From NCBI RefSeq assembly GCF_009827445.1, contig NZ_WTYI01000001.1, forward strand, positions 1,144,381 to 1,208,380: a stretch of DNA of 64,000 nt, read 5' to 3'. Numbering within the stretch: the first letter of the stretch is position 1; every line of letters begins with the position of its first letter. The notes beneath the pieces are model-generated. The model did no database searches and was not told the DNA's origin. It saw only the letters and a program-made list of their open reading frames with translations. The position numbers and the translations under genes were made by a program. Positions 2,855 through 25,052 of this stretch are shown here, piece by piece. This DNA is from Qipengyuania aquimaris (lineage in GTDB: Bacteria; Pseudomonadota; Alphaproteobacteria; Sphingomonadales; Sphingomonadaceae).

Positions 2855-3292
2855 TCACGCCGGGTATTTGCGCGCCATGCCTTCCCAGTCATTGCGCAGA
2901 AGAGCCTCCAGCACATCCATGTCTACATCGGCGAGCTTGTTGATGTAGAGGCAGCTCTTGCCGATCTTGTACTTGCCCAGCTTTGCGAGAAGCTCGTCGC
3001 GGCGCTTGCCGGTTTCCGGGTCGCAATATCCGCCCATCAGGTAGAGCGAATGTTTCGCTTTGCGGGGGCTAAATCCACTTCGCATCCAGTGGACATCGCG
3101 ACCGCTTTCATAGGTGGTGTGGTACTCACCATAACCGATAATCGACGGCCCCCACATCTTGGGTTCCATACCGGTGACCTTGCGGAAAAGATCGTCGAGG
3201 ACTTCCGCTTCTTCGCGCTTTCGCTCAGGCTCGACCGAAGCAAGGAAATCCGAGGGTTTGCGATCAGTGATTTTCGTCGTTGCTTCTGCCAT
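2855..3292 (-). CDS. DUF1801 domain-containing protein
   Basis: 145 aa cytosolic protein. The run around residues 45-75 (KMWGPSIIGYG, then HWMRSGFSPRKAKHSLYL) and the late KSCLYINKL are typical of DUF1801/YdhG-like proteins of unknown function. It is tail to tail with the molybdoenzyme gene: the two stop codons abut and form the palindrome TGATCA at 2852-2857, leaving no room for a terminator between them. Confidence 0.85.
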   Translation of the reverse strand: MAEATTKITDRKPSDFLASVEPERKREEAEVLDDLFRKVTGMEPKMWGPSIIGYGEYHTTYESGRDVHWMRSGFSPRKAKHSLYLMGGYCDPETGKRRDELLAKLGKYKIGKSCLYINKLADVDMDVLEALLRNDWEGMARKYPA

Positions 3293-3470: not shown

Positions 3471-4685
<1,215 letters not shown>

Positions 4686-4771
4686 AGAATTACCGGTCAG
4701 CCAGTCCGTAGGCGCTTAAAATTGCGCGCATAGCCGAAGTCGGGTTCGAATCTTTGCGACGAACGGTTGAC

Positions 4772-4814
4772 TTATCCACCTCCCTCCACAGCGAATTGTG
4801 TGGAAAGTGGATAA
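4772..4814. repeat. Nested inverted repeat with DnaA-box-like arms
   Basis: The outer arms TTATCCAC (4772-4779) and GTGGATAA (4807-4814) are exact reverse complements and match 8 of 9 bases of the classic DnaA box TTATCCACA. The inner arms are TCCACA (4785-4790) and TGTGGA (4799-4804). The element sits about 50 nt upstream of the structured RNA region. It could be a DnaA-binding operator, a cruciform or an RNA hairpin; the sequence alone does not decide. Confidence 0.6.
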
Positions 4815-4859
4815 CTCGCCTCTTGTGCGCTTGAAGAATCACACAATCAGGAGCAGCTT

Positions 4860-5405
4860 CAAGTCATCGGAACGGCGAAGAAAGCTTCCGGTCTCGACGG
4901 TCTAACGACCTGAAAGACTTAGGAAATTCGGAACCGGAAAGACGTAGCGGAACCTGTCCGCGCGACTTAAGAGACCCTCGTGCCGAAGGCTCACGCCGGA
5001 CGCAAGGCGGGTCGATGACGAAGACGCGTAACGTTCCATTACGAGCCGGGGCAACCCGGTCGGATGCCGAAGGAGGCGTCGCAACAAGGTCTTCGGACCG
5101 GATGGCGATGCAACCGTTTGAGGCTCCGGCCATCAACGGAAGGTCGGGCTGCGGAGCTGCCTGTTGAAGGTCGGCTGGGGAAAGTAAGCGAACGGCTTCG
5201 GCCGCGACGCGACTGGACCGGGCTGATTGGAGGGTGGAGCCGGATGCCGGTGCGAGCGCCGGTGACAGAACCGGAAGGGAAGTCTTCGGACGGAACGGAA
5301 GGGAAAACATCGGATGCCAAGTCTGCGTCCCTTGAACTTCGGTTGAAGGAACACGGCCACGCATCGGTGAGAGTGGGGTCGGCAGCAATGCCGGCCCCAT
5401 TTGCT
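4860..5405 (+). ncRNA. Candidate long structured non-coding RNA, unassigned family
   Basis: No reading frame here looks like protein on either strand. Hairpins are dense. UUCG-capped ones are GGTC/GACC at 5088-5099, CGGC/GCCG at 5193-5204, GTC/GAC at 5282-5291 and CCTTGAAC/GTTGAAGG at 5330-5349 (one mismatch). A GCAA-capped one is CCGGG/CCCGG at 5046-5059. A CGAG-capped one is CCGGTG/CGCCGG at 5247-5262. A perfect 11-bp GCAA-capped stem sits at 5374-5399. UUCG closed by C-G and GNRA loops are RNA-specific stabilisers, and the + strand carries them in the favourable orientation. It did not match my memory of RNase P, tmRNA, 6S or SRP RNA. The 5' end is uncertain (4815-4865). Confidence 0.6.
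5374..5399 (+). terminator. Terminator-like hairpin at the 3' end of the candidate RNA
   Basis: An 11-bp stem (TGGGGTCGGCA with TGCCGGCCCCA, one G-U pair) is closed by GCAA and followed by TTTGCT. It is strong as a hairpin; the T-run is weak. It probably defines the 3' end of the structured RNA. Confidence 0.55.
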
Positions 5406-5629
5406 ATGCGGCACCCTTCCCTCGCGATCCGGCAACAACAGCCGTCAATTCCCCCGAATCGCTCTCTGGTATGCACGCCACCTGGCACACCCCAGATGCA
5501 GTAGGAAAGCGCGACCACCTCCGTATCCGCGCGTTGAAACGTGGCCAAAACGAGGCAGTTTCCGTCCACGTTAACGACTCCGCGCGGCGCATCGCCTATA
5601 TCCTCCCGAACCGAACGGGAGGTCCATTC

Positions 5630-6142
5630 ATGGCCAAACGCGCGCTACGCAGCGCACTCTTCGTTGCAGCACTGACGCTGCCCGGCACCGCCGGTCATTC
5701 GGAAGAGCGCGAGCTTACCCCAGTAACCGACACCCAATTCCAGGCGAGTTTCGCCGAGTACGCCCCCCTGCCCGCTGCGCCTGCGCCGGGGCCGGAGGCG
5801 GTGGATCTCGACACCTTCGATCCCCCGATCGAGGTGGAGCCCGTCACGACCTCGCTCGGCAGCGGGGTTGCTTCCTATTACGGCCGCCGGTTCCACGGCC
5901 GCCGCACCGCCAATGGCGAGCGGTTCGACATGAACGCCATGACAGCTGCGCACAAGACGCTGCCCTTCGGAAGCCTGGTCCAGGTCACCAACCCGCGCAC
6001 GGGGGCTTCGGTCATCGTGCGCATCAACGACCGCGGTCCCTACGCACACGGCCGCACCATCGACCTCAGCCGCGCCGCCGCCCAGCAGATCGGGCTGGTC
6101 CAGCGCGGTCACGGCTCGGTAGAGCTGGAACTGGTGAAGTAG
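5630..6142 (+). CDS. RlpA-like double-psi beta-barrel protein, secreted
   Basis: 170 aa from ATG 5630. This start is chosen because GGGAGG at 5617-5622 is well spaced and it gives a signal peptide (to about residue 22). An acidic, Pro-rich linker leads into the RlpA domain at about residues 75-168: GVASYYG, TANGERF, AHKTLPFG, VRINDRGPY and GRTIDLS are the family blocks. RlpA proteins bind or cleave denuded glycan at the septum. No SPOR domain is present, so septal targeting is not shown. 5401-5629 upstream holds nothing I recognise. Confidence 0.9.
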   Translation: MAKRALRSALFVAALTLPGTAGHSEERELTPVTDTQFQASFAEYAPLPAAPAPGPEAVDLDTFDPPIEVEPVTTSLGSGVASYYGRRFHGRRTANGERFDMNAMTAAHKTLPFGSLVQVTNPRTGASVIVRINDRGPYAHGRTIDLSRAAAQQIGLVQRGHGSVELELVK

Positions 6143-24686: not shown

Positions 24687-24787
24687 GAAACCTCCTATCA
24701 TGAACGAACTGCCGCTCATGACGGGAGGGAGCAGGATCGCTTCCATCCGCGTTTGCCATCGGTGCACCCCGCCCGTGGCCGAACGAC

Positions 24788-24960
24788 TGGTACAGGCAGG
24801 TCTCCTGGCTCGCCGGATCAACGCTTTCCCGCCGCCTTCCCACCCCCGCAAGGGGGCAGTGGCATCTGGCGGGATCGCTCCCCGGTCACAGTTGCGGGGG
24901 CAGCCGGGGCTTCCTCACCCCGTTCCCTCTTAGGTCCGCCTTCGCGGACAACCCGTACCA
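24788..24960 (-). promoter_or_regulatory. Cobalamin (B12) riboswitch
   Basis: On the minus strand a P1 stem TGGTAC/GTACCA (24955-24960 with 24788-24793) encloses the conserved core: TAAGAGGGAA, GCTGCCCCCGCAACTGT and the B12-box AGCCAGGAGACCTGCCTG. These are the hallmark elements of the cobalamin riboswitch class. It precedes btuB by about 100 nt. CCTCCC on the minus strand (24723-24728) could pair with the btuB AGGAGG, which would allow translational shut-off; this last point is inference. Confidence 0.93.
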
Positions 24961-25052
24961 ATAACCGCGCCAATAGGGTGGGTTCGCAGGGCGGGCAAGT
25001 GCCTTGCTATTAACCTTTCCCCGCTATGCGATCCTGCGGTATGGAGCGCGTC

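Follow-up and report, generated by a model that had tools for sequence, protein, structure and literature searches.

A candidate gene for a large structured non-coding RNA, with putative replication-linked promoter sites, between argG and an rlpA-like gene of Qipengyuania aquimaris

Comparison of related genomes predicts an RNA gene of approximately 539 nt, with its own promoter and terminator, at positions 4866-5404 on the plus strand of the window, a stretch of 64,000 nucleotides of Qipengyuania aquimaris DNA. Gene boundaries, promoter, terminator, fold, single-copy state and the lack of a kept reading frame are supported by comparison, and the sequence data support the view that the argG-rlpA interval of the window is the gene for an independent, folded, non-coding RNA under selection. 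The best explanation is probably that of a free-standing gene for a new trans-acting large structured non-coding RNA, the synthesis of which would be linked either to replication or to the cell cycle. The earlier note had proposed a long non-coding RNA here and that reading is supported, although it missed the promoter with its DnaA-like boxes and GANTC site as well as the spread of the RNA to further genera.

The gene is flanked on its 5' side by argG (Pfam argininosuccinate synthase) and on its 3' side by an rlpA-like gene (Pfam DPBB_1). argG and rlpA were each found within the same stretch as the RNA unit at 113 of 114 loci, and the unit is single-copy in the window's 2.66-Mb genome. The RNA start at approximately 4866 is predicted from spacing to the -10 element (7 nt past it) and coincides with a conserved AUCGGAA, where the conserved structure begins. 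As the transcript most likely starts here, positions 4815-4865 represent the promoter, and the extent of 4815-5405 first assigned to the RNA is retained for its RNA part but not for these initial nucleotides. The terminator-like stem described at the 3' end is present as an intrinsic terminator hairpin followed by a short U tract (5373-5404, plus strand), with a stem of 5373-5384/5389-5400 and a GCAA loop, and corresponds to helix 24 of the counted structure.

All four C(UUCG)G caps originally reported were found in plus-strand orientation, at 5091, 5196, 5284 and 5337, each capping a stem 3 bp or longer, with none on the minus strand. In 500 dinucleotide shuffles such hairpins averaged 0.03 and never numbered four, in agreement with the earlier view that the caps cluster beyond chance. 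Across 114 related loci there was a mean of 2.27 UUCG hairpins per locus on the plus strand versus 0.035 on the minus strand, and GNRA hairpins totalled 80 and 15, respectively; in 19 more distant RNAs the corresponding counts were 44 versus 2 for GNRA and 15 versus 1 for UUCG. The MFE z-score of 4815-5405 was -2.71, the sequence being more stable than shuffles. GCAA caps had also been described, and that of the terminator is present; a local GCAA hairpin can be read in the sequence at 5046-5059, but at 82% paired in relatives with one double-change cell it is less well supported than a long-range helix, 5044-5047/5147-5150, which was 98.4% paired with 38 double-change cells. No reading frame is kept among the 35 RNAs of the genus, the lengths of which fall in all three classes modulo 3. 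Four tested frames were stop-free in 15, 7, 21 and 25 of the 35 relatives (stops in 10-28 of 35), with the minus-strand frame 5039-5400 free of stops in 25. A protein gene was rejected on the basis of these broken frames and lengths, consistent with the initial statement that the approximately 540 nt hold no plausible protein.

A single architecture comprising 160 pairs in 24 helices was obtained with RNAalifold on the genus alignment, and pairs were counted in 32 of the 35 genus RNAs, three near-identical ones being omitted. Over these 32 relatives 91.6% of 5069 cells were paired versus 30-44% for slid partners, although derivation of the counted structure from the same-genus alignment by itself lifts pairing above that of slid versions. 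Pairs changed on both sides numbered 85 versus 50.5 in shuffles (sd 3.7) and double-change cells 411 versus 141 (sd 12), with 0 of 500 shuffles reaching either value, bearing in mind that related sequences can exceed shuffles without any structure. A stricter test of all column pairs by tree-based simulation produced one significant pair in a first run on the genus, one in the 35-row genus alignment, with fewer than 80% standard pairs, six in the family alignment and, in a separate run, three in the 3' domain; in this 3'-domain all-pairs test 19 of 114 sequences were without anchors. When the covariation test was limited to proposed pairs, nine of 189 were significant. The argG-rlpA interval of relatives, comparison of which the earlier note had proposed, is conserved and has compensatory changes above those in shuffles and slid controls, but few pairs were significant in the stricter all-pairs test. 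Among the conserved elements are a helical arm (5058-5063/5126-5131, plus strand) bearing the UUCG hairpin at 5088-5099, and a second UUCG hairpin (5193-5204, plus strand) in which 41 of 128 cells were double changes and which includes the best-scoring covarying pair, 5195-5202. At the 5' end of the RNA an unpaired GGAA (4869-4872) is invariant in the genus alignment.

Towards the 3' end lies a near-invariant core, CCGGAUGCCGGUGCGAGCGCCGGUGA, with helices 5247-5254/5360-5367 and 5256-5264/5308-5317 (5239-5367, plus strand). For the four-helix 3' domain, 96.5% of cells were paired over 48 diverse sequences (48 of 57 selected from 76), and 12 pairs showed double changes, a result obtained in 0 of 500 shuffles. 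Two pairings of the core sequence GCCGGUGCGAGCGCCGGU are available. Folded locally, 329 of 334 cells were paired with no double change, whilst long-range pairing with 5360-5367 gave 372 of 384 paired cells and 16 double-change cells, and with 5308-5317 gave 415 of 427 and five, such that covariation was present in the long-range helices only. The CGAG hairpin (5246-5263) noted previously is formable in nearly all of the 48 relatives, but its bases can instead pair at long range, in an arrangement that covaries, and the local hairpin may represent a folding intermediate or a switch.

Upstream of the RNA are three sites that we take to be DnaA boxes from the known consensus, the first being TTATCCACC, the second weaker and the third an inverted TTATCCAC. 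Site 1 (TTATCCACC; 4772-4780, plus strand) and site 3 (4806-4814, minus strand; GTGGATAA read on the plus strand) form the conserved left and right arms of an inverted pair, and between them is the middle site CCCTCCACA (4782-4790, plus strand), often TTGTCCAC in other loci. The inverted pair TTATCCACN{18,40}GTGGATAA has one occurrence in the 2.66-Mb genome. The outer arms, TCCAC...GTGG[AC]NAA, were exact in 108 of 121 loci; in 11 of the remaining 13 both arms were present with one or two changes and in two they were not found. In a promoter alignment of 69 of 84 loci the TCCAC of the middle site was invariant (69 of 69) and not imposed by selection; right-arm invariance in this alignment was imposed by the anchor used for locus choice. 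Boxes in some distant loci are identical to TTATCCACA. The left and right boxes could also pair as a stem, with A-A mismatches in 8 of 35, suggesting that they are DNA sites rather than an RNA stem.

Between the boxes and the predicted start is a promoter with a -35 element TTGAAG (4831-4836, plus strand) and, after a 17-nt spacer, a -10 element CAGCTT (4854-4859, plus strand; consensus CANNNT), the C, A and last T of which did not vary in any of the 69 aligned loci and were not imposed. The 13 of 121 loci without the exact box anchor were omitted from further promoter counts, and in the resulting 108 the pattern TTGNNN-N16..18-NANNNT was present in 96 (94 with N17) versus 10 of 1089 control windows. 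The 12 loci missing this pattern comprised, by eye, seven with CTGG for CTTG and five in which it was nearer the boxes. Conserved beside the -35 element is a GANTC (CcrM-type methylation) site, GAATC (4836-4840, plus strand). GANTC was observed 18-42 nt past the right arm in 95 of the 108 loci, mostly at 21-23 nt, compared with 15 of 1452 control windows, and at equal distance in 16 of 20 distant loci. The N position varies (GACTC 52, GAATC 40, GATTC 6 and GAGTC 4) whilst GANTC is kept, which is better explained by methylation than by a fixed word. A GcrA gene was present in 20 of 20 genomes tested, including those without GANTC at the locus, and so does not separate loci with GANTC from those without it in these genomes. 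The absence of GANTC from 13 of 108 loci and from four of 20 distant loci, the genomes of the latter having GcrA, indicates that the site is not obligatory.

The named GcrA/CcrM promoters of Caulobacter drive protein genes. The promoter described here has the arrangement typical of that class, GANTC beside -35 and -10 elements of the sigma-70 type (PMC3667746), and differs in having a structured RNA as its product and DnaA-like boxes in addition. According to the available parts of the sources, GcrA of Caulobacter and a relative is believed to stimulate sigma-70 where a methylated GANTC lies next to the promoter (PMC3667746, PMC7987155), and GANTC to GCNTC mutations in Caulobacter crippled four tested promoters with one other unaffected (PMC3667746). 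From the DnaA-like boxes together with the GANTC site we infer that synthesis of the RNA would follow replication or the cell cycle, through DnaA and GANTC methylation.

Searched with blastn, the interval matched 33 of the 37 genus genomes examined (its own included), 97 of 298 family genomes and 38 of 96 genera; 24 genomes from the order's other families gave no match. With a profile the unit was recognised at 81 of a further 82 loci, in the case of L134 by the 3' end only, which together with the first 33 make up the 114 loci. A 3'-motif scan of GTDB genomes produced 115 stretches; the names among the 80 of these matches listed were Qipengyuania, Erythrobacter, Altererythrobacter, Croceicoccus, Porphyrobacter and similar, Sphingomonadales or broader uncultured names. 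Two search models, R1 and R2, were also used, spanning 150 and 121 positions only. The promoter sequence model R2 matched 130 of 298 family genomes at E<=0.01 and 46 of 96 genera, weak matches included and with many of the loci found being among those used for its training, and had no match in 50 of the 96 genera. Loci from G104, G170, G231, G304, G313 and G327 were outside the R2 training and so count as new; all six have an R1 match of 32-36 bits on the same strand, its start lying approximately 320-730 nt downstream of that of the R2 match. In 289 genomes of the class R2 produced three strong matches, all in family members, and two weak ones elsewhere at 18.2 bits each, and no convincing match outside the window's own family was present in the genomes searched. 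R1 matched 160 of 298 family genomes (96 of them, by a count made by eye, scoring at least 46 bits), a tally that overstates the spread because inspected weak matches were terminator-like hairpins (seven of eight in L335-L342, by eye) or had no box pair (all nine in L383-L391). The hairpins at L335-L338 and L340-L342 are close to GGCAGCAATGCC and follow apparently unrelated protein genes (by eye), perhaps reflecting a lineage-wide terminator style.

In 19 distant copies the RNA bodies were about 330-700 nt long, and the motif CCGGAYGYC was present in 11 of the 19 on the plus strand and in none on the minus strand, with 1.3% expected from shuffles. By eye, a terminator was clear in 16 of 20 distant loci, absent from two and unconvincing in two. 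A match at L344 (963-1092) represents a divergent copy of approximately 360 nt with TTATCCACAGG and two GACTC, on a contig other than that of argG. In another relative (L400) an Rfam suhB/mmgR sRNA is located at 2889-2966 (plus strand), approximately 1.7 kb downstream of the RNA promoter. The RNA still follows argG in some genera, argG and RNA are apart in G104 and G204, and the RNA adjoins PurL-like and NadA protein genes in L401 and L417. Its presence at other loci in some genera indicates that argG and rlpA are neighbours and probably not partners. Ten genomes, four from the genus and six from other genera, retain argG and rlpA but have neither the unit nor the boxes there. These ten loci (L190-L195 and L197-L200) suggest repeated clean loss; the ten genomes contained no R1 match above 37.4 bits, and nine weak places from six of them had no box pair. 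Loss with both flanking genes kept suggests that the RNA is probably useful yet dispensable.

The RNA had been assigned to no named family, and cmscan of window positions 4600-5700 against Rfam 15 likewise gave no match at gathering cut-off. At E<=10 there were two matches, both on the minus strand; one scored 19.7 bits (cut-off 52) and the other 17.7 bits (cut-off 66.8). Rfam searches at the RNA of distant loci (15 loci, then four) also identified no family, and a known Rfam family was therefore rejected. The sole match of the window at gathering cut-offs is a cobalamin riboswitch at 24778-24971 (minus strand; 133.2 bits). ARAGORN found no tRNA or tmRNA in the window, and both were rejected, as was a phage- or plasmid-borne element, since viral contigs contained no exact match to the motif and plasmids no blastn match. 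OLE, ROOL and GOLLD are all represented in Rfam. Unlike these, the RNA described here matches no Rfam model and has convincing matches in its own family only, with none in viral contigs (exact motif) or plasmids (blastn), whilst sharing with them large size and an elaborate fold, as far as the available part of the source describes them (PMC12286853). The unit was not named in the titles or abstract openings of the literature found on sphingomonad ncRNAs. The parB gene normally lies near the chromosome origin; here it is at 2,224,218, with the RNA at approximately 1,149,246 on the same 2.66-Mb contig, approximately 1.07 Mb away. This distance, together with a location of oriC near hemE in most Sphingomonadaceae according to the available part of the source (PMC4741004), suggests that the locus is probably not an origin, and an origin was rejected; a GC-skew sample was weak and is given no weight in this.

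In the model that we consider probable, the housekeeping sigma factor would direct RNA polymerase to start at approximately 4866 from TTG-N17-CANNNT and stop at the hairpin 5373-5400, and the RNA would fold as several arms around a near-invariant core made up of the 5' end and the last approximately 170 nt. DnaA may occupy the boxes (about -97 to -52), and the GANTC beside the -35 element may be methylated by CcrM and read by GcrA, tying synthesis to replication or the cell cycle. The most speculative part is that the RNA would act in trans rather than as an rlpA leader, as its own terminator, its occurrence at other loci in some genera and a body of approximately 330-700 nt suggest. By analogy with large ornate RNAs as described in the available part of the source (PMC12286853), it might act as a structural scaffold or RNA-protein particle. 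A bolder form of this model can be offered only tentatively: a replication-gated large RNA of many Sphingomonadaceae genera, fired once per cycle by DnaA and the methylation of one GANTC. Equally tentatively, this RNA might assemble into a scaffold or particle, its core toggling between the local CGAG hairpin and the long-range helices.

A rather less likely explanation is a trans-acting antisense-type regulator, single-stranded conserved segments of which would pair with cell-cycle or other mRNAs, the elaborate fold merely presenting them. The cell-cycle style promoter and the invariant unpaired GGAA at 4869-4872 are consistent with this, and a precedent of the class exists in CcnA, a cell-cycle ncRNA of Caulobacter tied to the DnaA, CtrA and GcrA circuit (PMC8959179). 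According to the available part of that source, CcnA is 182 nt long and lies inside the replication origin with CtrA boxes (PMC8959179), whereas the RNA described here, like it in the putative cell-cycle link, is approximately 539 nt long and, approximately 1.07 Mb from parB, probably not inside an origin. A body of approximately 330-700 nt with dozens of pairs changing on both sides exceeds the needs of a pairing RNA, however, and we favour the structured trans-acting RNA.

Sites such as datA and DARS bind DnaA and exert chromosomal control, and the boxes could be a site of this kind with the RNA as by-product. Three DnaA-like boxes kept over many genera and an inverted pair found once in the genome would fit such a role, but the RNA body is itself under structural selection and the whole unit is absent in some species, making it improbable. 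A cis-acting 5' leader or attenuator of rlpA is a shade more improbable still and was rejected: rlpA occurs in the same stretch at 113 of 114 loci, and the strong terminator at the RNA end and two exclusive core pairings would fit such a role, but the unit stands beside other genes in some genera and rlpA persists at ten loci without it. Despite the DnaA-like boxes and the size, a chromosome origin, a mobile intron or an unrecognised RNase P, tmRNA or 6S RNA is very improbable given the distant parB, the reported oriC near hemE (PMC4741004, in its available part), the single copy in the window's genome and the lack of an Rfam or ARAGORN match.

Large orphan bacterial RNAs are already known as a kind, and what is novel here is the RNA family itself, which looks like a family of large RNA genes that has a near-invariant core and no Rfam entry. 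If the reading of the promoter is true, a large structured RNA would be wired directly to DnaA and CcrM/GcrA, and the job of large orphan RNAs would become testable.
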